Shown here: in pieces, positions 8,333 to 64,000 of the stretch
Numbering within the stretch: position 1 is the first letter of the stretch
Layout of the letters: each line of letters starts with the position of its first letter
NCBI GenBank assembly: GCA_021798955.1
Contig: JAJZBK010000008.1
Coordinates: forward strand, 1 to 64,000
Direction of reading: 5' to 3'
DNA from: Actinomycetes bacterium
GTDB taxonomy: Bacteria; Actinomycetota; Acidimicrobiia; Acidimicrobiales; RAAP-2
DNA length: 64,000 nt
The notes under the pieces: generated by a model
What the model saw: the letters and a program-made list of their open reading frames with translations, nothing else
Database searches by the model: none
Told to the model about the DNA's origin: nothing
Translations under genes and position numbers: made by a program

Positions 8333-8794
8333 TCAGCTCGGGGGGCGTCCTCCGTCGGCCTCGGGTCGGTGCAGCAGAAAGGTGCCCGTCGCCCGGCTGA
8401 TGAGCGAACCGGCCTCGTCGCGCACCGAGGCCTCGCCGTAGGCAACCTGACGAGCCAGACGGACGACCTCCCCGCGCAGCCGGTAGGAAGCGCCGTGCTC
8501 GGCAGGCCGCATCGTCTCGATCTTCATCTCGAGCGTTGCCCGCGTCCGGGCCCGCCCGGGCAGGGCCGCGTTGATGGCGAAGTTCATGGCGGCGTCGAGG
8601 AGCAGACCGTGCACGCCGGCCTGGACGATCCCGTGCGGATTGCACGCCTCCGACGACGGGGTGAAGGTGCCGTCGACCCACCCGAGGTCTTCGCCGTCGA
8701 CCCCGTAGGCGAGGAAGGAGGCGCCGACCATGCCGATCAGGGGCATGCCCCCGTCGCCAAGCCACCGGTCCATGTCCTTCACACGTTCCGTCAC
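8333..8794 (-). CDS. PaaI-type hotdog thioesterase
   Basis: The product is 153 residues from a GTG at 8794; an ATG at 8773 would give 146. The hotdog-fold signature is visible: CNPHGIVQAGVHGLLLDAAM (helix that binds the CoA), then KIETMRPAEHGASYRLRGEVVRLARQVAYGEASV. PaaI-like enzymes hydrolyse acyl-CoA thioesters. The gene lies 411 bp from the divergent thiolase and may use the same intergenic region for its promoter. The substrate cannot be assigned. Confidence 0.82.
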   Translation of the reverse strand: MTERVKDMDRWLGDGGMPLIGMVGASFLAYGVDGEDLGWVDGTFTPSSEACNPHGIVQAGVHGLLLDAAMNFAINAALPGRARTRATLEMKIETMRPAEHGASYRLRGEVVRLARQVAYGEASVRDEAGSLISRATGTFLLHRPEADGGRPPS

Positions 8795-8959
8795 CCGGCT
8801 GACGGTACAGCGCCGCGGCGACTGCCGTCGAGGACGCGTGAGTGCCGGCGAGGACGTATGACCGCTGGCGTGCGAGCATGCCTCCGTCGAGGTCACCCTG
8901 GGGCTGCGAACCGCTCGGGCCGCTGGGCGCGGTGCCTCCGGACTGACCCGGCACCGACC
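8795..8959. other. Upstream half of a 411-bp gene-free gap
   Basis: The gap between the thioesterase and the thiolase runs from 8795 to 9205. Apart from the promoter and palindrome at 8960-9010 I see no gene, repeat or RNA. The transcribed leader of the thiolase would be about 200 nt long, and I could not recognise a riboswitch in it. Confidence 0.5.
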
Positions 8960-9010
8960 TTGACGGGGCGGGAGGACGGCGTATGCTCGTGTCTTGACCG
9001 ACTAGTCAAG
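8960..9010 (+). promoter_or_regulatory. Promoter with overlapping 18-bp palindromic operator
   Basis: A -35 box TTGACG (8960-8965) and a -10 box TATGCT (8982-8987) are separated by 16 bp. Five bases after the -10 box lies CTTGACCGACTAGTCAAG (8993-9010), an inverted repeat with 6-bp arms. A protein bound there would cover the transcription start. Nearly the same palindrome lies at 23544-23561. The length and symmetry suit a TetR-family repressor; no such gene is in the window. Confidence 0.7.
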
Positions 9011-9205
9011 TCTCTACCGGTGGCAGGCCCGGTGCTGAACAGGGCCGCGTGCCGTGGGCACCCGGCCGAGATGCCCGTGGTGCGACGCCCTCGGGCGAGC
9101 CCAACGGCACGGGCTCGGCAGGAGGAACCGGGGGACGACAGCGCACCCCGGACGACCAAGGACCCGGCCCGCACGGCGGTCGGGCCAGACCAGGAGGACA
9201 GCCGC

Positions 9206-10390
9206 ATGACCGATGCAGTGATCGTCGATGCAGTACGGACCCCCGGGGGCAAGCGCAACGGCAAGCTCCGCAACTGGCACGCTGCCGACCTGGCGTCCGA
9301 GCCGCTCAAGGCGCTCGTGGAGCGCAACGACCTCGACCCGGCCATGGTCGACGACGTCATCATGGGGTGCGTCATGCAAGTCGGTGAGCAGGCCCTGAAC
9401 GTGGGCCGCAACGCCGTGCTCGCCGCCGGCTTCCCCGAGTCGGTACCGGCTACCACCATCGACCGCCAGTGCGGATCGTCCCAGCAGGCGCTGCACTTCG
9501 CTGCCCAGGGCGTCATCGCCGGCGCCTACGACGTGGTCATCGCCGCCGGGGTCGAGGTGATGACCCGCACGCCGCTGGGATCCTCCGTGGTGCGCGACCT
9601 GGGCTTCCCCTTCGGCCCGCGGGTCATGGCCCGCTATGCCGAGCGCGGTGGCCTGGTGAGCCAGGGCGAGGGCGCCGAGCTGATCGCCGAGCAGTGGGGC
9701 ATCACCCGGACCGAGCTCGACGAGTTTGCCGTGCGGTCGCACAAGCTCGCCGCCCAGGCCACCGCCGAGGGGCGTTTCGACAACGAGCTCCTGCCGGTGC
9801 CGGTCAAGGACGATGACGGGAACGACACCGACGAGCTGTTCCGCGTCGACGAGGGGATCCGCCCCGACTCGAGCGTGGACGTCCTCGCCAAGCTGAAGCC
9901 GGCGTTCCGTCCCGAGGAGACCGGCATGGTCACGGCTGGGAACTCCTCGCAGATCACCGACGGTGCCTCGGCCGTCCTCGTCATGAGCGAAGAGCGGGCC
10001 AATGCCCTCGGGCTGACGCCACGGGCGCGGTTCCACAGCTTCGCCGTGGTCGGTGCCGACCCGATCACCATGCTGACAGGACCGATCCCCGCTACCAAGG
10101 CCGTGCTCGACCGGGCGAAGCTCACTCTCGACGACATCGACCTGGTCGAGATCAACGAGGCGTTCGCCTCGGTCGTCCTCGCCTGGCAGCGGGAGCTCGG
10201 CGCCGACCTCGAGAAGGTCAACGTGAACGGCGGGGCGATCGCCCTCGGTCATCCCCTCGGCGCCTCCGGGAGCAAGCTGATGGCCACGCTGCTCAACGAG
10301 CTCGAGCGCACCGGTGGTCGCTACGGCCTCCAGACGATGTGCGAGGGTGGCGGGCTGGCCAACGCCACCATCATCGAGCGCCTGGGCTGA
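9206..10390 (+). CDS. Acetyl-CoA C-acyltransferase (thiolase)
   Basis: The 394-residue enzyme condenses or cleaves acyl-CoA at the last step of beta-oxidation. All three catalytic positions are visible: Cys89 in DRQCGSSQQ, His349 in GHPLGASG, and Cys379 in MCEGGG. INEAFA precedes the His region, as in degradative thiolases. The ATG at 9206 has AGGAGGA eight bases upstream. The gene stands alone with its own promoter and palindromic operator at 8960-9010. This suggests regulation together with the acyl-CoA dehydrogenase at 23.7 kb. Confidence 0.93.
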   Translation: MTDAVIVDAVRTPGGKRNGKLRNWHAADLASEPLKALVERNDLDPAMVDDVIMGCVMQVGEQALNVGRNAVLAAGFPESVPATTIDRQCGSSQQALHFAAQGVIAGAYDVVIAAGVEVMTRTPLGSSVVRDLGFPFGPRVMARYAERGGLVSQGEGAELIAEQWGITRTELDEFAVRSHKLAAQATAEGRFDNELLPVPVKDDDGNDTDELFRVDEGIRPDSSVDVLAKLKPAFRPEETGMVTAGNSSQITDGASAVLVMSEERANALGLTPRARFHSFAVVGADPITMLTGPIPATKAVLDRAKLTLDDIDLVEINEAFASVVLAWQRELGADLEKVNVNGGAIALGHPLGASGSKLMATLLNELERTGGRYGLQTMCEGGGLANATIIERLG

Positions 10391-10466
10391 TCCTCTCTCG
10401 GAGCTGGGTCATCTCTGGGAGCTGGGAGGGCGCCGCGCAACGGCCGCCTGACCGGCGCCGACCCGC

Positions 10467-10500
10467 CGACCGTGCCGGCCTCGAGAGGCCGGCACGGTCG
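10467..10500. terminator. Perfect 34-bp palindrome between convergent genes
   Basis: Bases 10467-10500 form a perfect palindrome centred on CTCGAG, with arms starting CGACCGTGCCGGCCT. It lies between the thiolase stop and the crgA stop, which converge. There is no T-tract on either side, so it would be a GC-rich hairpin terminator acting in both directions, as is common in actinobacteria. Confidence 0.75.
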
Positions 10501-10599
10501 CGTTCGGGGACGGTGGCGAAGTAGGACGCCACCGACGCCTCGCCGAGGACCCGGCGCTCACCGGTCCTGGCCGGCACGGTGGCACCAGCCCGATGGCGC

Positions 10600-10962
10600 C
10601 TAGTGGTACTTGGTCGCTGCCATCAGCCCGGCGAAGACGAGCCCGATGGCGCCGACCAGCCACCAGTTGCTCACGCCACCGGGCAGCGCGTTGACGTAGT
10701 TGAGGATGATGAGCAGGACACCCAGGGTGAAGAGAGCGATGATGAGCGCGCCCATCCACGGTGGGCTCTTCTTGGCGCTCTTGGGCTGTGGCGGGGTGTA
10801 CCGCTCGCTCGTCGTCGAAGCGACGGACTGGCGCCCGCTCCGGCGACCCGTTCTGCCCTTCCCCGACGACGCCACCGTTCCCTTGGGCTGAGCGCGACCC
10901 GAGCTCGACCTCCCCTTGCGGCCGGATGCTGCGGGGGTCTTCGCGTTGGCCTTCGTCGACAT
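10600..10962 (-). CDS. crgA: Cell division protein CrgA
   Basis: The 120-residue protein has a basic N-terminus and two C-terminal membrane helices (about residues 70-88 and 97-115) separated by [10 protein letters not shown]. It ends in the family's ATKYH-type tail. CrgA is an actinobacterial divisome protein that coordinates septum formation with peptidoglycan synthesis. The N-terminal tail is longer and richer in Lys, Ser and Arg than in short mycobacterial homologues. Its neighbours (pabA, pknB, pbpA, pstP, fha genes) match the conserved actinobacterial locus, which strengthens the call. Confidence 0.9.
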
Positions 10963-11034
10963 GGTCGAAGCCTAGCGAGCACGGTGAGGCCGGCGAAGGC
11001 CACCTCTCTGCCCTGCCGGTACGCTGAGGGGACC

Positions 11035-11631
11035 ATGGGCGCCACGGTCCTCCTCGTCGACAACTACGACTCGTTCGTCTACAACCTCGTGCAGGAGCTG
11101 GGCGAGCTGGGGGCAGACCCGGTGGTCCGCCGCAACGATGCCGTCGACGTCGACGGCATCCGAGCACTCGGGTGCAACCTGGTGGTCATCTCGCCGGGCC
11201 CGGGACGTCCGGAGGGCGCCGGCATCAGCCTCGAGGCCATCACCGAGCTGGCCGGTGAGGTGCCCATCCTCGGGGTGTGCCTGGGACACCAAGCCATCGG
11301 ACAGGCGTTCGGGGCGAGCATCGTCCGTGCTCCCGTGCTCATGCACGGCAAGACGTCCGAGGTCCACCACGACGGCAGAGGCGTCTTTGCCGGGCTCCCG
11401 CAACCGTTGACCGCCACGCGCTACCACTCGCTCGTCGTCGACCCGACGACCGTCCCCGACGAGCTCGAGGTGACCGCCACTACCGACGACGGCGTCATCA
11501 TGGGGCTACGCCACCGCGACCTTCCTGTCGAGGGGGTCCAGTTCCACCCCGAGTCGGTGCTCACCTCCTCGGGACCGTCGTTGCTGGCCAACTTCCTGGC
11601 CCAGGCCACGACAGCCCGCAGCCGGCAGTAG
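11035..11631 (+). CDS. pabA: Glutamine amidotransferase, anthranilate/aminodeoxychorismate synthase component II
   Basis: The 198-residue class I amidotransferase releases ammonia from glutamine for chorismate amination. The family start [16 protein letters not shown] is present, Cys82 sits in [11 protein letters not shown], and the His-Glu pair is in VQFHPES. Sequence alone does not separate PabA (folate) from TrpG (tryptophan). No component I gene is nearby. In mycobacteria the gene at this place is annotated trpG, so position does not decide it. It is convergent with pknB. Confidence 0.85.
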
Positions 11632-57548: not shown

Positions 57549-58829
57549 GTGCCTGACCTCGCTGCCGTCGACCCCTTCGTCGTGATGGCCAAGCCGGTCG
57601 GTGCGACGTGCAACCTCGACTGCACCTACTGCTACTACCTGCCCACCGAGGGACGCGTCCCGTCGGCACCCGGCAGGATGGCCCCCGAAGTGCTCGAGGC
57701 CTACGTCACGGCCATGGTCGCTGCCGCGCCCGGTCCGGAGATCCACTTCGTGTGGCACGGCGGCGAGCCCACGCTGGCCGGCATCGACTTCTACCGCCGG
57801 GTGGTCGACCTGCAGCGTGCCGTCACGCCGGACGGGCGCCGGTGCGTCAACAGCATCCAGACCAACGGGACGCTCCTCGACGACCGGTGGGCGGCCTTTT
57901 TGGCCGAGGAGCACTTCGCCGTCGGGCTCTCCCTCGACGGACCGGCAGTGCTGCACGACGCCACCCGTCCCGACCGACGGCGCCACCCCACCCACGAGCG
58001 CGCCCTTCGCGGCCTCGCCGCGCTCCGCACCTACGGCATCGAGCCGGACGTCCTCTGCACGGTGAACGCCACTACTGCCACCGCCCCACTTGACGTCTAC
58101 CGCTTCTTCCTCGACCAGCACGTGCGCTGGGTGCAGTTCCTGCCGGTCGTCCAGCGTGCTGCCGACGGAGGCCTGTCGCGACAGAGCGTGACCGCAGAGG
58201 CGCTTGGGACCTTCCTCACCACCATCTTCGACGAATGGGTCCGGCACGACGTCGCCTCGATCGGGGTGCAGACCTTCCTCGAGCCGATCCTCCCCCTGAA
58301 CGGTCGCCACCCGACGTTGTGCACCGTGTCCGAGACGTGCGGGCGGGCCCTTGCCCTCGAACGCGACGGGTCGCTCTACGCCTGCGACCACTTCGTCGAC
58401 CTCGACCATCGCCTGGGCGACGTGCGGACGGACGACCTCGCCGGCCTGGTCGACGGACCGACCCAGACCTCCTTCGGAGCAGCCAAGCGCGACGGGCTCA
58501 CGGCCACGTGCCAGTCCTGTCCCGTGCTCGTGCTCTGCCGCGGTGGTTGCCCGAAGGACCGCTTCGGGACGTCGTTGGAGGGTGAGGGCGGCCACAACGT
58601 CCTCTGCGCCGGGTACCTGGCCTTCTTCACCCACGCCCGTCCGCTCCTCGAACGGCTCGCCGCCTTGGCCCGCCGTGGTCGCCCCCTGGCCGGGATCGTC
58701 GACGAGCTCCGCGTCGAGGAGGCCGATGCCGAGGCCCCCTGGCGCACCAGCGGCCGCAACGACCCGTGCCCGTGCGGCAGCGGTCGGAAGTACAAGCACT
58801 GCTGCCTGGGTGCACACCGGCGGCGGTGA
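57549..58829 (+). CDS. Radical SAM maturase (anSME-like) with C-terminal SEC-C motif
   Basis: The 426-residue protein carries the radical SAM site CNLDCTYCYY near residue 20, the GGEPTLAG segment, and a SPASM region with several cysteines (ETCGRAL, CDHFVD, CQSCPVLVLCRGGCPKD), as in anaerobic sulfatase-maturating enzymes. Such enzymes convert a Cys or Ser of a sulfatase to formylglycine. The last 25 residues add a SEC-C zinc motif, NDPCPCGSGRKYKHCC, which is not part of classical maturases. No sulfatase is in the window. The GTG at 57549 is the start giving a typical N-terminus. Confidence 0.88.
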   Translation: MPDLAAVDPFVVMAKPVGATCNLDCTYCYYLPTEGRVPSAPGRMAPEVLEAYVTAMVAAAPGPEIHFVWHGGEPTLAGIDFYRRVVDLQRAVTPDGRRCVNSIQTNGTLLDDRWAAFLAEEHFAVGLSLDGPAVLHDATRPDRRRHPTHERALRGLAALRTYGIEPDVLCTVNATTATAPLDVYRFFLDQHVRWVQFLPVVQRAADGGLSRQSVTAEALGTFLTTIFDEWVRHDVASIGVQTFLEPILPLNGRHPTLCTVSETCGRALALERDGSLYACDHFVDLDHRLGDVRTDDLAGLVDGPTQTSFGAAKRDGLTATCQSCPVLVLCRGGCPKDRFGTSLEGEGGHNVLCAGYLAFFTHARPLLERLAALARRGRPLAGIVDELRVEEADAEAPWRTSGRNDPCPCGSGRKYKHCCLGAHRRR

Positions 58830-58845: not shown

Positions 58846-60093
58846 TCAGCCCGGGCCAGCCGGGAGCCCTCGGGCGAGCTGGTGACGCCCGACCAGCACG
58901 GCCCCGGCTGCGCCGAACGCCGCCGCGGTCATCACCAGCCATGCCACGTCGTAGGAGGCATGGTCGAGGACCTGCCCCACGACCACCGGCCCGAGCACAC
59001 CACCGAGCCGCCCGCCGACGTCGGTGAACCCGGTGGCCTTGGCCGGCGCGTGCAGGTGCGCGCGCACCACGGCCAGGTTGAAGCGAGCGTTCCACCCCCA
59101 ACCGGCTCCTGCCGCTGCGATGGCGGCGGCGGCGAACAACCACCGCACGTGCCCCGCCGACGCTACGGCGACGAGCAGGTAGCCGATCCCGCCAGCCGTC
59201 AACATGGCGGCCACCACCGGAAAGTGGCCCTCGTCGCGCCGGTCGGCGTGGACCCCCATGGCGATCCGCGTGACCACGGCGACTGCGCCCACCGCCGCCA
59301 CCAGGTAGCCGGCCCCCGCCCGACTGAAGCCGTCGTGCACGGCGCCGATGGCCAGAAAGGCCACGAACCCGCTCACCGCGAACATGCCGAGCGCCATGCC
59401 GACCGCCAGCGCCATGAGCGGCGCCACCCGGACCGGCTCGACGCGGCGCTCCCGACGGGCCTGACGCCGTTCGGCGATGGTGGACAGCGAGGCCGGGACG
59501 ACCACGCTCGCCACCAGTGCCAGTACGCCCGCCATGACGAACGCCCACCGCCACCCGATGGTGAGGGCGACGAAGGGCACGGCCAGGCCGCCGAGGAGCG
59601 GGGCCAGGGGGACGGCAGCCTGGTTGATGCCGAAGGCGCGGCCCTGGCTGCTGGCGGGCACACGTCGGGCCAGGAACAGGTACGTGGCCGGCATGATCGC
59701 GCCACTGGCGATCCCGGTCAGGCACAACAGGACGGCGAGCACCGACCACGACCGGGCCACCGTGGCGATGAGGACCAACAGCACGCCCTCTGCAGCAGAC
59801 GCCACCCGCATGACGCGGCCGCCGCCGACCCGTTCGGTGAGGCGGCTGAGCGGGATCGAGCTGACCGCCGCACCGAAGTAGTAGCCACCGGCGGCGATTC
59901 CGAGAGCACTGGCGCCGAAGGAGAGCGAGCGGTCGATCTCGACGGACAGTGCCCCGAGGACGTAGACAGGCAGGGACGAGCCGAGCGTGACCAGGACGGC
60001 GGCAAGGACGGCATGCCAGGTCGGCACGGACCCGACCGGGACCGCTCCCTCGGCGTCCACGTGACGCCTTGACGAGGCAGGTCGGCTGGTCAC
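58846..60093 (-). CDS. MFS transporter
   Basis: The 415-residue protein has about 12 membrane helices and the MFS loop SRLTERVGGGRVMR between helices 2 and 3, plus GRAFGINQAAVPLAPLLGGL in the fourth to fifth helix region. It moves a small solute by proton coupling. The GTG start overlaps the stop of the VOC gene (GTGA), so it is the last gene of the minus-strand operon from 64 kb down. Position suggests it transports the substrate or product of that pathway. Confidence 0.88.
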   Translation of the reverse strand: MTSRPASSRRHVDAEGAVPVGSVPTWHAVLAAVLVTLGSSLPVYVLGALSVEIDRSLSFGASALGIAAGGYYFGAAVSSIPLSRLTERVGGGRVMRVASAAEGVLLVLIATVARSWSVLAVLLCLTGIASGAIMPATYLFLARRVPASSQGRAFGINQAAVPLAPLLGGLAVPFVALTIGWRWAFVMAGVLALVASVVVPASLSTIAERRQARRERRVEPVRVAPLMALAVGMALGMFAVSGFVAFLAIGAVHDGFSRAGAGYLVAAVGAVAVVTRIAMGVHADRRDEGHFPVVAAMLTAGGIGYLLVAVASAGHVRWLFAAAAIAAAGAGWGWNARFNLAVVRAHLHAPAKATGFTDVGGRLGGVLGPVVVGQVLDHASYDVAWLVMTAAAFGAAGAVLVGRHQLARGLPAGPG

Positions 60094-60431
60094 GGACCAG
60101 CGTCCACCAGCTCCACCACCAAGCCCGGACTGAGCGACCACCACAACGGGCCGCGCTCGAGCTGGCGACAGCCCCATCGCGCCAACGCCCCACCCGCCTC
60201 GGACGGGTCGGCGACCGCGATGGCGACGTGGGCGAGCGCGCCGCCGGTCGGCGGCTCCTCGCGGCACTCGATCAGCTGGATCCCTCCCTCGAGCCATACC
60301 TGGTGCGGCTCGCCGGGCTCGTCGGCCTCCAGCGTCATCCCGAACACCTGCTCGAAGAGGGCGACGTGCCAGTCCAGCCGGCACACACAGAGCGCCACGT
60401 GGTCGACTCGGCTTGCTCGGCCCCCGCTCAC
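60090..60431 (-). CDS. VOC family protein
   Basis: The 113-residue protein has a VOC fold: DHVALCVCRLDWHVALFEQVFGM at the start and ALAHVAIAVADP in the second half, with WLEGGIQLIEC between. The short length equals a single domain that must dimerise. Possible activities include epimerase or glyoxalase-like. It overlaps its neighbours at both ends with GTGA junctions, which fixes both boundaries and shows that it is part of the operon. Confidence 0.8.
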   Translation of the reverse strand: MSGGRASRVDHVALCVCRLDWHVALFEQVFGMTLEADEPGEPHQVWLEGGIQLIECREEPPTGGALAHVAIAVADPSEAGGALARWGCRQLERGPLWWSLSPGLVVELVDAGP

Positions 60432-61384
60432 CGGGGTGCCGCCGACCCGCTCGATGCGACCCGCCTGCGGCTGACTTCGAGCCCCTGGACGCACGCCTCG
60501 AGGGTGGCGTTGACCGGAGTGGGCACGCCTGCGGCCGACCCAGTGCGGACCACCGCACCGTTGATGAAGGCGATCTCGGTGGGTGCACCTCGCTCCAACG
60601 ACTGGAGGATCGAGGTTCGAAAGTCGTCGGGAAGCCCCCGGCGTGCTTCCTGCCACACTGCCTCGGCGTCCACCTCGCCGAGGTCGACGCCGCACGCCGT
60701 CGCCACGGCGACCGCCTCGCGAACAGCGGCATGCGCGGTGCGCTGGATGCCCTCGAGTCGGTAGAGCGAGCCGTAGGTGAGGCCGGTGATGCCAGCCAGG
60801 GCGCCGGTGGCCACGTTCACCAGCAGCTTTTGCCAGATGACCGATCGAATGTCCGGGCTGACCTCGGTGTCCAGGCCGCCGCGGCCAAATGCGGCGGCCA
60901 CCGCGCCGGCGCGGTCCGAGTCCACACCGAACGGCTCGCCGACGACCGTCGGGCGGCCGTGGATGCCAGCACGGACCACCCCCGGTGCCGCCGCGTCCCC
61001 TGACACGTAGGTCCGTCCCGCCAGGACCCGATCGCGTCCCACCACTCCAGCCGCCACCTCCTCGACACCGAGCCCGTTCTGGAGCGTCAGCACCGTCGTC
61101 GCACGACCCAGCAGCGACGAGGCTGCCGACAGGGCGGCCGCCACGTCGAACGCCTTCACCACTACCACCACTACGTCGACGTCCCCGACCTCCTCGGCAT
61201 CGACGGTGGCCCGTGGCCACACCACGGTGGTGCCGTCGTCCTCGACCAGGTGCAGGCCATGGGTCGAGATCGCAGTGACCACGTCTCGTCGCCGTCCGAC
61301 CATCCACACCTCCTCGCCGCCACGCGCCAGGCACCCCCCCACGACGCTGCCCAACGAACCGGTGCCGAGGATGGCGATCCTCAC
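60428..61384 (-). CDS. Ketopantoate reductase-like (2-dehydropantoate 2-reductase family)
   Basis: The 318-residue NAD(P)H enzyme starts VRIAILGTGSLGSVVGGCLARGG and has TLQNGLGVEE, then IWQKLLVNVATGALAGITG with the family Lys and Asn. Classical members reduce ketopantoate in pantothenate synthesis. Within a catabolic acyl-CoA operon it more likely reduces or oxidises another 2-oxo or hydroxy acid. The GTG at 61384 overlaps the MaoC stop (GTGA), as elsewhere in this operon; an ATG at 61390 is an alternative. Confidence 0.85.
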   Translation of the reverse strand: MRIAILGTGSLGSVVGGCLARGGEEVWMVGRRRDVVTAISTHGLHLVEDDGTTVVWPRATVDAEEVGDVDVVVVVVKAFDVAAALSAASSLLGRATTVLTLQNGLGVEEVAAGVVGRDRVLAGRTYVSGDAAAPGVVRAGIHGRPTVVGEPFGVDSDRAGAVAAAFGRGGLDTEVSPDIRSVIWQKLLVNVATGALAGITGLTYGSLYRLEGIQRTAHAAVREAVAVATACGVDLGEVDAEAVWQEARRGLPDDFRTSILQSLERGAPTEIAFINGAVVRTGSAAGVPTPVNATLEACVQGLEVSRRRVASSGSAAPR

Positions 61385-61875
61385 AGGCATCGCCCTTCGG
61401 ACCACCCGCTGTCCGAGGTGGCACCCGGGCGCTCCACGCCTTCGGCTTCGTCGAGCTCGAAGAACTTGAGGATGTGGGTGGCCACCACGCACACCTCGCC
61501 GCGCTGGTTCACCAGCCGAACCTCGGCCTCGCTCCGGAGGGCCTCGTCGTCCACAGAGGTGACCGTGTACTCGGCCCGGAGCGTGTCGCCGATGTAGACG
61601 GGGCGCACGAACCGCAGGTGGTCGTAGCCGTACGACACGCTGGGCAGCGCGGCGGGGACCTTGGACTGCACCAGGGTGGAGGCCGTCGAGCCCAAGGCAA
61701 AGCTCAGCACGCCGTGGACGATCCGTGTGCCATAGGGCGTCGTCTGCATGAACGACTCGTCGGTGTGCATCCGGCTGAAGTCGCCAGTGATGCCGGCGAA
61801 GCCGTAGACGTCGGACTCCGAGATGGTCTTGGTGAACTCGCTGTGGTCCCCGACCTTCAGCGGAACGGTCGCCAT
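61381..61875 (-). CDS. MaoC-like hydratase/dehydratase
   Basis: The 164-residue protein has the hotdog-fold hydratase 2 pattern: TISESDVYGFAGITGDFSRMHTDESF with the Asp and His of the active site, and YGTRIVHGVLSFAL after it. It hydrates a trans-2-enoyl-CoA to the (R)-3-hydroxyacyl-CoA, or runs backward. It starts at an ATG 45 bp after the CoA-transferase stop, the largest gap in this operon. Confidence 0.88.
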   Translation of the reverse strand: MATVPLKVGDHSEFTKTISESDVYGFAGITGDFSRMHTDESFMQTTPYGTRIVHGVLSFALGSTASTLVQSKVPAALPSVSYGYDHLRFVRPVYIGDTLRAEYTVTSVDDEALRSEAEVRLVNQRGEVCVVATHILKFFELDEAEGVERPGATSDSGWSEGRCL

Positions 61876-61920
61876 GCCGGTCTCCTCTCGTTCAGCCTGC
61901 TCGTGTGCAGGTCCTGTCGG

Positions 61921-63666
61921 TCATCGGCGGGGCCCGACGTCAGCCCGACCGGTGGACCAGGTCTGTCGGAGCCCGAGGGGGGCGAGCTCGAACAGCCGGG
62001 GGTCCATCTCGGCGAGGTCCTCGGCGACAAGCGGGACGAAGCCCATGTGGGCGAAGATGTCCCGCTCCACGTCGACACCGGGAGCCACTTCGGCAAGGCA
62101 CAGGCCGTCGTCGGTGAGGCGGAAGACGGCCCGCTCGGTGACGTAGCGCACGTCGTGGCCGGAAGCCAGGGCGTCGGCCGCCGAGAAGGTGACTTCGTCG
62201 AGGTGCGCGACGAACTTCTCGATGCGCCCTTCCCGGGCGATCCTGAGCGCCCCGGCCTCGACCCGGACGTCTGCGCCACCAGCGGTGAAGGTCCCGCTGA
62301 AGACGACCTTCCGGCTGTTCTGGGCGATGTCGATAAACCCGCCGGTGCCCATGATCTTCCCGCCGAAGCGGTGCACGTTGACGTTGCCGTTCCGGTCGAC
62401 CTCTGCGAAAGACAGAAAGGCGATGTCGAGCCCGCCGCCGTCGTAGAAGTCGAACTGCGCGCCCATGTCGACGACCGCCTGGGCGTTGATGGTGGCACCG
62501 AGGTAGATGCCCTGGGCCGAGATACCCCCGATGGGCCCGAGCTCGACAGTGAGGGTGAAGGTCTCGTCGACACCCTCCTCACGGGCGACGACACCGACGC
62601 CGTCCGAGATGCCCACGCCGACGTTCCCGACGTCCCCGGGGGTGACCTCGAGCAGGGCGCGCCGGGCGACCACCTTGCGCACGTCGAGCGGGAGGGGCTC
62701 GGGGTCGGTGGTCTCCATCGTGTAGTCGCCGGAGAAGAAGCGGTCGACCGATCCGGTGTACAGCTGTGGCTGGTCGGGGCAGACGACGAGGCCGTCCACG
62801 AGGAACCCGGGAACCCGCACCGACTTGGGATGGAGCGTGCGGGCACGCACGACCCGTTGCACCTGGGCGACCACGAGCCCGCCGCTGTTGTGCGCCGCCT
62901 GGGCCAGCGCGAGGGCGTCGAGGGTCGTGACCTCGTCCTCGAAGCTCAGGTAGCCGAGCGTGTCGGCCGTGGTGGCCCGGATGAAAGCAACGTCGACGGG
63001 CAGGGCGGGATAGAACAGCCATGGCTCGCCGTCGATGTCGATGAGGCGCACCAGCTCCTCGCGGGTCACCGCGTTCAACCTGCCGCCTGTCGACCTCGGG
63101 TCGACGAACGTGCCCAGCCCGACGTGCGTGAGGATGCCGGGCTGGCCGGCTGCCGTCGCCCGGAACAACTGGGACAGCACGCCCTGGGGAAAGTTGTATG
63201 CCTCGATCTGGTCGCGTTCGGCTAGTTCGGCCAGGCGGGGCGACTGTCCCCAGTGGCCACCGATCACCCGCGAGCACAAACCGGTCTGGGCGAGCGGTGA
63301 CATGCCCCGGTCCCCCCGGTCCCCGAGCCCAGTGGAGTGGACGAAGGTGAGGCCCACGGGAGAGCCGGTCTCGCGGTGGCGACGGGCAAGGGCGTCGATC
63401 AGGGCTGTTGCCTCGTTCAACCCGCCACCGGCGCCGAGGATGCCCACGGTGTCCCCGTCGGCGATCCACGTCACTGCCTCGTCGGCGGTCACGACGGGGA
63501 CAGTCAGGTTGCCACTCGGTCGGGGTCGTCGGACCCGCTGACGCCTGCGCCGGGGTCGGATCGCTCCTCCCTGCTCGGCGCCCTCCTCGAGCCGGCCGGC
63601 ATCGTCGGCATGGCCGGCATCGGCGACCGCCGAACCGTGGGAGTCCACGACCACCGGTCCGGTCAT
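61921..63666 (-). CDS. Family I CoA-transferase, fused alpha-beta type
   Basis: The 581-residue protein combines both CoA-transferase halves, like YdiF/acetate CoA-transferases. The first half has DGDTVGILGAGGGLNEATALID and GLTFVHSTGLGDRGD; the second has TVELGPIGGISAQGIYLG, where the Glu would form the CoA thioester, and GGLDIAFLSFAEVDRNGNVN. About 65 residues of low-complexity sequence precede the domain. The ATG at 63666 overlaps the stop of the acyl-CoA dehydrogenase (ATGA). It swaps CoA between acids, so it can activate the pathway substrate. Confidence 0.88.
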   Translation of the reverse strand: MTGPVVVDSHGSAVADAGHADDAGRLEEGAEQGGAIRPRRRRQRVRRPRPSGNLTVPVVTADEAVTWIADGDTVGILGAGGGLNEATALIDALARRHRETGSPVGLTFVHSTGLGDRGDRGMSPLAQTGLCSRVIGGHWGQSPRLAELAERDQIEAYNFPQGVLSQLFRATAAGQPGILTHVGLGTFVDPRSTGGRLNAVTREELVRLIDIDGEPWLFYPALPVDVAFIRATTADTLGYLSFEDEVTTLDALALAQAAHNSGGLVVAQVQRVVRARTLHPKSVRVPGFLVDGLVVCPDQPQLYTGSVDRFFSGDYTMETTDPEPLPLDVRKVVARRALLEVTPGDVGNVGVGISDGVGVVAREEGVDETFTLTVELGPIGGISAQGIYLGATINAQAVVDMGAQFDFYDGGGLDIAFLSFAEVDRNGNVNVHRFGGKIMGTGGFIDIAQNSRKVVFSGTFTAGGADVRVEAGALRIAREGRIEKFVAHLDEVTFSAADALASGHDVRYVTERAVFRLTDDGLCLAEVAPGVDVERDIFAHMGFVPLVAEDLAEMDPRLFELAPLGLRQTWSTGRADVGPRR

Positions 63667-64000
63667 CGTGGCCCACCGTCGAGCGCGACGGTGGGCTCGA
63701 GGACCCAGCCCCCCGAGGCCATCGAGTCGAAGAGCGCGGCCCCGGACTCGAGCGCGTGGCGCGCCACCACCATCCGGTGGATCTCCGAGGCGCCGTCGTA
63801 GATGCGCGCCACCCGGGCGTCGCGGTAGTAACGCTCGATGCTCAGGTCCTTGCAGTAGCCCATCCCGCCGAACACCTGGACAGCCCGGTCGACCACCCGG
63901 CCGAGCGCCTCGGCGGCGTGGACCTTCACCATGGCGATCCAGTCGCGCGCATCGCGCCCGGCGTCCAGCTCCCACGCGGCCCTGAGGACCATGAGGCGCG
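63663..64000 (-). CDS. Acyl-CoA dehydrogenase, C-terminal part (cut by window edge)
   Basis: Only the last 112 residues or so are in the window; the gene continues past 64000. The visible part is the C-terminal helical domain with AEALGRVVDRAVQVFGGMGYCKDLSIERYYRDARVARIYDGASEIHRM. The catalytic-region residue is Asp (IYDGASE) where most members have Glu. It is the most upstream gene seen of the minus-strand operon and overlaps the CoA-transferase start. Confidence 0.9.
   Translation of the reverse strand, partial: RLMVLRAAWELDAGRDARDWIAMVKVHAAEALGRVVDRAVQVFGGMGYCKDLSIERYYRDARVARIYDGASEIHRMVVARHALESGAALFDSMASGGWVLEPTVALDGGPR

Follow-up and report, generated by a model that had tools for sequence, protein, structure and literature searches.

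The 64,000-nucleotide stretch analyzed here (the window) corresponds to positions 1-64000 of contig C8 (83,780 bp) from an Actinomycetes bacterium genome (G000; 2.52 Mb, 91.8% complete). At its end lies a six-gene operon, which makes up the distal half of an island of ~19 kb (contig C8 58846-77585, numbered as in the window). Based on the genes that recur beside its homologs elsewhere, we lean toward the view that this island catabolizes a quinate/shikimate-type ring acid via CoA thioesters. Two sets of genes point in this direction: a cassette within the operon encoding a CoA-transferase, a MaoC-type hydratase, a ketopantoate-reductase-like enzyme (KPR) and a VOC protein (module B), and a set beyond the window edge encoding a thiamine diphosphate (ThDP)-dependent enzyme and a citryl-CoA lyase homolog (module A).

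The minus strand carries all six operon genes where an initial annotation of the window had placed them, and all six proteins pass curated Pfam cut-offs, the VOC protein barely. In the direction of transcription they encode an acyl-CoA dehydrogenase (ACAD; 63663..64892, PF00441 92.2 bits), of which only the C-terminal 111 residues (63663..64000) are inside the window, the gene extending over its edge to 64892; a fused family-I CoA-transferase of the YdiF/Pct type (CoAT; 61921..63666, PF01144; start uncertain, core from ~63528); a MaoC-type enoyl-CoA hydratase/dehydratase (61381..61875, PF01575 71.7 bits); KPR, an oxidoreductase of a distinct subfamily (60428..61390 from an ATG, or from a GTG at 61384; PF02558/PF08546, TIGR00745); a VOC-fold metalloenzyme-like protein (60090..60431; Pfam VOC 21.1 bits against a cut-off of 20.6, together with a predicted model); and, as the last gene, an MFS transporter (58846..60093, PF07690 137.5 bits), which is kept in two related loci (L008 and L009, see below). 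The operon had been described as tightly coupled with mostly 4-bp overlaps, and such start/stop overlaps do occur at four of the five junctions: ACAD/CoAT (63663-63666), MaoC/KPR (61381-61384 with the KPR GTG start; 10 bp with the ATG start), KPR/VOC (60428-60431) and VOC/MFS (60090-60093, the MFS gene starting at a GTG over the VOC stop). CoAT and MaoC are separated by a 45-bp gap. The ACAD/CoAT overlap is less sure, because CoAT read from the ATG at 63666 has a ~55-residue N-terminal extension that is not covered by the matches of its relatives, which begin at query residue 42-58. A promoter/terminator scan gave counts no higher than the shuffle level.

VOC, MaoC and CoA-transferase genes lie beside KPR at 21 of the 23 KPR-subfamily loci inspected. 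This co-conservation exceeds chance and agrees with the initial annotation, which had noted an uncommon CoA-dependent catabolic gene set and recommended searching for it in other genomes. Every one of the 21 cassette loci carries a dehydroquinase (18) or a shikimate dehydrogenase (13) gene nearby; minus the six loci found via a dehydroquinase search, the count is 15 of 15 (dehydroquinase 12, shikimate dehydrogenase 7). KPR and VOC, which the annotation had placed outside standard beta-oxidation, are constant members of the cassette across phyla. The order it had read from the operon, from uptake through CoA transfer and oxidation to hydration, stays hypothetical; an ACAD homolog is near the cassette at only 4 of the 21 loci, in one case with 35% identity and at a distance of several kb. 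A flavin dehydrogenase beside module B may recur.

The KPR subfamily is sharply bounded: in profile searches its members score at least 463 bits (3/398 Pseudomonadota, 4/398 Bacilli; all seven loci were read) and the next genes at most 239. Searches of plasmid records with KPR (474 records) returned 24 at 54% identity or more, with the next at 38%, and 13 of the 24 were read; for the dehydroquinase (435 records), 12 of the 30 matches listed were read. The MaoC profile found 2/398 Bacillota and 3/396 Actinomycetota at 183 bits or more, the next scoring 110, and the three without KPR (G359, G744 and G682) were read. Locus contexts covered ~7-20 kb, annotation of the plasmid records is incomplete, and the loci cluster in few lineages.

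The cassette occurs in more than one form. On the Enterococcus raffinosus plasmid pCX012922, the genes annotated as CoA-transferase, MaoC, a ketopantoate reductase family protein, VOC and aroQ follow one another in this order and touch or nearly so. Burkholderia, Paraburkholderia, Massilia, Caballeronia and Bradyrhizobium carry, in this order, KPR, VOC, MaoC, CoA transferase and aroE, often with aroQ, and in the Burkholderiales and Bradyrhizobium the MaoC is only 22-28% identical to the window type and the CoA-transferase belongs to the CaiB rather than the YdiF type. Because MaoC and CoA-transferase occur in two dissimilar versions, the roles appear to be kept while the two proteins are exchanged. 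Directly after the Massilia cassette come a second shikimate dehydrogenase gene and a dehydroshikimate (DHS)-dehydratase-like gene. This comparison of loci shows CoA-transferase, MaoC, KPR and VOC as a mobile cassette that travels with dehydroquinase and/or shikimate dehydrogenase. Partial sets were also seen. G359 (L093) encodes MaoC (50%) and CoAT (51%) homologs beside a TRAP transporter, a shikimate-dehydrogenase-like gene and further reading frames, with no KPR found, and on plasmids of Paraburkholderia and Rhizobium (L041, L042) CoA-transferase and MaoC genes adjoin near shikimate-dehydrogenase-like genes without KPR, possibly a third version of module B.

The initial annotation had also proposed extending the sequence past 64000, and the upstream genes include a ThDP-dependent enzyme (72131-70314, minus strand), a citryl-CoA lyase homolog and a dehydroquinase. 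The lyase homolog, a short citrate-synthase-fold protein (76752-77585, plus strand), passes the curated cut-off of the citryl-CoA lyase model NF004864 (401.7 vs 261 bits), citryl-CoA cleavage itself being predicted from sequence; a CaiB-type CoA-transferase precedes it (about 75541-76755, plus strand). All 10 genomes with an island-type ThDP enzyme have the lyase, and a dehydroquinase or shikimate dehydrogenase gene is near in 10/10. CaiB is found at the 7 loci where the aldehyde dehydrogenase (ALDH) is homologous to that of the window island or was not found, and is absent from the 3 loci with an acylating-type ALDH; this exchange suggests that the CoA thioester of the lyase's acid substrate is what matters. 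By such comparison, the ThDP enzyme, the citryl-CoA lyase homolog and an enzyme predicted to make a CoA thioester (CaiB or acylating-type ALDH) show up as a second module beside shikimate/quinate genes.

Both modules occur together in the window island and in three Bacilli (G1263, G1488, G1351), where module B is followed by genes for the lyase, an alcohol dehydrogenase, the ThDP enzyme, ALDH, an IolI-like TIM barrel (best PDB match 1i60) and a dehydroquinase. Identities between the Bacilli and window proteins are 53-54% (ThDP enzyme), 40-42% (lyase) and 65-67% (CoAT), and the best-scoring model of the Bacilli ALDH places it with CoA-acylating enzymes (NF047625, 476.6 bits, short of the cut-off of 600). 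A plasmid of Azoarcus KH32C has a run of sugar-phosphate isomerase/epimerase family protein, CoA transferase, citryl-CoA lyase, ThDP enzyme, shikimate dehydrogenase and aroD, its TIM barrel scoring 156 bits with the DHS dehydratase QuiC, below the cut-off. The divergent IclR-CaiB-lyase / ALDH-ThDP layout of the window island recurs, together with a shikimate dehydrogenase, in Streptomyces sp. NBC_01450, Nonomuraea gerenzanensis and G618; the first two also carry a PQQ-enzyme-like gene (below the models' cut-offs), and in Nonomuraea a DHS-dehydratase-like gene lies beside the module. The ThDP profile identified 2/306 Actinomycetota, and three of 1720 plasmid records at 51.7% identity or more, the next being at 39% among the 20 listed; these loci were read. 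Citryl-CoA lyase homologs are on 159 plasmid records (20 listed, at 39-44% identity), with context read for those beside a ThDP enzyme.

Between the operon and module A, the minus strand encodes an IclR regulator (65732-64935), the type II dehydroquinase (66345-65899; TIGR01088 192.6 vs cut-off 169.85), an RbsC-like permease (67635-66574), an RbsA-like ATPase (about 68477-67632), a lipoprotein-like frame that is a candidate binding protein by its position (69869-68844), and a small cupin (70285-69911). Upstream of the ThDP enzyme are a Zn-alcohol dehydrogenase (Zn-ADH; 73078-72092) and ALDH (74612-73122), both on the minus strand, and a second IclR gene opens the divergent operon (74663-75547, plus strand). 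Beyond the island, a fused shikimate kinase / dehydroquinate synthase homolog (L165; 79251-77662, minus strand) has a divergent AroB part that scores 77.9 bits, vs 156.1 for the other AroB of G000. This fused gene accompanies the island in 3/3 genomes, and a shikimate-kinase-like gene is also in the three Bacilli clusters. L008 (genome G008) and L009 (G020) keep the whole gene order of the island, lyase through MFS transporter, with ~65-95% protein identity. Full-length CoAT was found in 3 of the 61 genomes searched, G000 included, and the next best relative is a Bacillus (CoAT 64%, MaoC 65%, KPR 48%); this patchy presence and distant relative indicate that the island spread horizontally. On the other side of the operon, convergent with the MFS gene, lies a gene for a radical SAM/SPASM protein with a SEC-C motif (57549-58829), which L008 (84%) also has next to its MFS gene, as does L009 in fragmentary form.

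The absence of a thiolase noted in the initial annotation holds next to the operon on contig C8: none was recognised among the island genes (58846-77585), although no genome-wide thiolase search of G000 was made. What probably accounts for the gap is a pair of other C-C cleaving enzymes encoded past the window edge, the ThDP enzyme and the citryl-CoA lyase homolog. Plain beta-oxidation was rejected, since an ACAD and a hydratase are present but neither a thiolase nor a 3-hydroxyacyl-CoA dehydrogenase was recognised in the island; nor does the operon resemble a truncated one for fatty-acid beta-oxidation. Chance adjacency was rejected on the conservation of both modules across loci.

Conserved residues and family models bear on the individual enzymes. 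KPR meets the curated subfamily cut-off of TIGR00745 (212.5 vs 141.35 bits), while no listed equivalog model reaches its cut-off, and N105, K188, N192, S260 and E272, presumably the catalytic positions, are kept in 10/10 aligned proteins. In the VOC protein, H11, Q52, H68 and E107 (the set we take to correspond to that of methylmalonyl-CoA epimerase) are invariant in 9/9; the predicted model (predicted local distance difference test score, 82) has FosA and glyoxalase I among its best folds, and the fold search says only that it is a VOC metalloenzyme. D32 and H37 of MaoC are invariant in 5/5. The itaconate pathway was discarded as a candidate, as MaoC scores 28.7 bits with the model of its hydratase (Ich/RipB, NF038241), below the cut-off of 340. 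The best PDB match of CoAT is E. coli YdiF (671.6 bits), and Glu375 aligns with YdiF residue 333, which we take to be the catalytic glutamate of family-I CoA-transferases. In the ThDP enzyme, E73 and the GDG...N motif, presumably catalytic, are kept in 7/7. Its scores with the acetolactate synthase model TIGR00118 (389 bits for the window island, 463.1 for the Bacilli) stay below the cut-off of 538.35, and assignment as acetolactate synthase was dropped.

G008 and G020 have a housekeeping dehydroquinase in an aroK-aroB-aroQ run besides the island copy. A midpoint-rooted tree of 32 dehydroquinases, with two long branches, puts the island copies on the catabolic-type side, not in the housekeeping clade of the family (support 96/97). 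In G000, the aro operon (L116, contig C51, about 8515-11338) has no aroQ between aroB and a peptidase gene, unlike that of G008. No type II dehydroquinase at all was seen in the same-genus genome G001. As for the substrate, for which a branched or hydroxylated acid had been suggested, a hydroxylated acid is possible; the dehydroquinase and shikimate dehydrogenase neighbors point to a ring acid rather than a branched fatty acid.

In the proposed pathway, the ABC and MFS transporters would import the ring acid and Zn-ADH (elsewhere shikimate dehydrogenase or other oxidoreductases) would oxidize it to a 3-keto acid, with the dehydroquinase linking dehydroshikimate and dehydroquinate. The ThDP enzyme would cut the ring next to the keto group, and the new chain end would be converted to a CoA thioester, a citryl-CoA analog that the lyase could split to acetyl-CoA and a 2-oxo acid. 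What would make the thioester such an analog is C1 of quinate, a tertiary alcohol with a carboxylate, flanked in the ring by two CH2 groups; when quinate is opened at C3-C4, the C3-C2-C1(OH)(COOH) part is the same grouping as in citrate. Within the same regulon, module B would supply a second branch that depends on CoA: the CoA-transferase may activate the ring acid or a ring-derived acid, MaoC may add or remove water next to the thioester, KPR may act as a 2-oxo/hydroxy-acid oxidoreductase, and VOC as a metal-dependent isomerase.

A more specific version, which we put forward tentatively and as decidedly less secure than the general scheme, is an oxygen-independent, non-aromatising conversion of quinate/shikimate to acetyl-CoA and 2-oxoglutarate via homocitryl-CoA. 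Quinate would be dehydrogenated to 3-dehydroquinate, with shikimate entering via shikimate dehydrogenase and dehydroquinase acting as a hydratase. A TIM-barrel dehydratase would then remove water from C4-C5 to give a 3,4-dione, which the ThDP enzyme would hydrolyse at C3-C4 to homocitrate semialdehyde. It is this prior dehydration, as in inositol catabolism, that would make the thioester homocitryl-CoA, formed by the acylating ALDH in the Bacilli or by ALDH and CaiB in the Acidimicrobiaceae, actinomycetes and Azoarcus. A split of the citryl-CoA-lyase type would yield acetyl-CoA and 2-oxoglutarate, accounting for all seven quinate carbons. The KPR-VOC-MaoC-CoA-transferase cassette could serve the same acids as a second CoA-thioester branch; in the Burkholderiales and Enterococcus raffinosus it occurs without the ThDP module.

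Several observations weigh against the ring-acid proposal, whose weakest point is the role of module B. The 21 cassette loci lack independence, with 3 from Acidimicrobiaceae, 4 from Bacilli, 1 from Enterococcus and 13 from Burkholderiales, Bradyrhizobium and three Pseudomonadota. Module B is missing at 6 of the 12 catabolic-type dehydroquinase loci inspected, and MaoC relatives of the window type are found in other contexts as well (G744, G682). The two remaining KPR loci, Paraburkholderia fungorum and PGU19_p2, lack the cassette; their KPR genes (L131 and L134, 55-56%) have no VOC, CoA-transferase or either MaoC type as partners. Among structures compared with the ThDP enzyme, BbmA, acetolactate synthase and glyoxylate carboligase all outscore cyclohexane-1,2-dione hydrolase, which counts against a simple transfer of the hydrolase function; the enzyme may instead be a carboligase or decarboxylase. 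On contig C8, relatives' proteins used as queries gave no match for a shikimate dehydrogenase, a TIM-barrel dehydratase or a Gfo/Idh enzyme, so that the entry steps in G000 rest on Zn-ADH and the dehydroquinase. Since neither TIM-barrel type matches (the Massilia, Azoarcus and Bacilli proteins were queried against contig C8, the rest of G000 not being searched), a dehydration step in G000, if any, has no assigned enzyme. No type I or type II dehydroquinase other than the island copy was found in G000, and that copy may simply be the biosynthetic AroQ; for the same reason, it probably serves both biosynthesis and catabolism there. Lastly, G008 has one match to the intradiol ring-cleaving dioxygenase family (PF00775).

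The sole dehydroquinase of G000 would also fit an operon of independent purpose, in which the substrate of the CoA-dependent genes is a short acid, hydroxylated or unsaturated, akin to lactate/acrylate or to a tricarboxylate, and the dehydroquinase belongs to aromatic biosynthesis. CoAT is of the YdiF/Pct type, the nearest NCBIfam model of ACAD is acryloyl-CoA reductase (below cut-off), and KPR occurs without the cassette at two loci. In Burkholderia multivorans (L132, 3705-8873), module B directly follows tcuA and tcuB, for tricarballylate dehydrogenase, plus an MFS gene, and the Bacilli clusters encode TctC-type binding proteins. We nevertheless consider this explanation unlikely, given the presence of a dehydroquinase or shikimate dehydrogenase with module B at every cassette locus, whether or not the dehydroquinase-derived loci are counted, the additional housekeeping aroK-aroB-aroQ genes in G008 and G020, and the position of the island dehydroquinases outside the housekeeping clade.

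Still less probable is another cyclitol or a sugar acid as substrate, with a breakdown resembling that of inositol (dehydrogenase, dehydratase, ThDP ring hydrolase). The RbsC/RbsA-type transporter, ALDH, the IolI-like TIM barrel of the Bacilli and Gfo/Idh enzymes at some loci would suit such a compound. The recurrent partners, however, are dehydroquinase (including type I AroD in Azoarcus) and shikimate dehydrogenase, with a DHS-dehydratase-like gene in Massilia and Nonomuraea, and a citryl-CoA lyase is not known to act in inositol catabolism. The DHS-dehydratase-like genes in these two genera, and the sub-threshold QuiC score in Azoarcus, could instead mark a conventional quinate/shikimate-to-protocatechuate cluster with unrelated passengers, which we regard as improbable, the most so of the three. 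Contig C8 has no DHS dehydratase match, none is annotated near the five-gene cassette of Enterococcus raffinosus, and the cassette would be superfluous. PF00775 gave 0 matches in G000 (91.8% complete), G020 and a Bacillus (G061), and with no intradiol dioxygenase these genomes give no sign of the usual ortho route through protocatechuate.

Quinate and shikimate are abundant plant acids. If the ring-acid reading is true, a CoA-/ThDP-based route to acetyl-CoA and a 2-oxo acid would bring such acids into central metabolism in a new way that works without oxygen. It would also assign functions to genes that the public annotation of many genomes labels ketopantoate reductase, VOC protein, MaoC, citryl-CoA lyase or acetolactate-synthase-like. 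A literature search, whose coverage excluded most subscription journals and all preprints, recognised nothing on this gene set or on quinate together with homocitrate or citryl-CoA lyase.

Known qui/qsu clusters convert quinate/shikimate to protocatechuate, the ring then being cleaved with oxygen. Shared with them, at the island or at related loci, are dehydroquinase, shikimate/quinate dehydrogenase homologs, IclR or LysR regulators and, at some loci, a DHS-dehydratase-like TIM barrel; the island adds CoA-transferase, MaoC, KPR, VOC and the ThDP/citryl-CoA lyase pair. Myo-inositol degradation by IolG/IolE/IolD and cyclohexane-1,2-dione hydrolase resembles the Bacilli and Azoarcus loci in combining a dehydrogenase, a TIM barrel and a ThDP enzyme, and differs in that the island ThDP enzyme is nearer to acetolactate synthase and that CoA-thioester and lyase steps are added. 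The lyase itself fits citryl-CoA lyase/homocitrate synthase chemistry by its NF004864 match, whereas its setting is a catabolic island with CaiB and ring-acid genes, where a citryl-CoA analog is the likely substrate. ACAD, the hydratase and a CoA-transferase resembling Staphylococcus FadX (378.7 bits, cut-off 750) recall beta-oxidation, with KPR and VOC in place of 3-hydroxyacyl-CoA dehydrogenase and thiolase. The E. coli MG1655 region ydiB-aroD-ydiF-ydiO (L115, 3790-8348) likewise has adjoining genes for a quinate/shikimate dehydrogenase, a dehydroquinase (type I-sized), a homologous CoA-transferase (57%) and an ACAD, ydiF and ydiO being annotated as putative; MaoC, KPR, VOC, the ThDP enzyme and the lyase are not annotated in the E. 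coli stretch read. By analogy with the carnitine system, this region possibly encodes a CoA-dependent reduction of a shikimate-type acid, and it may also be illuminated by the island described here.

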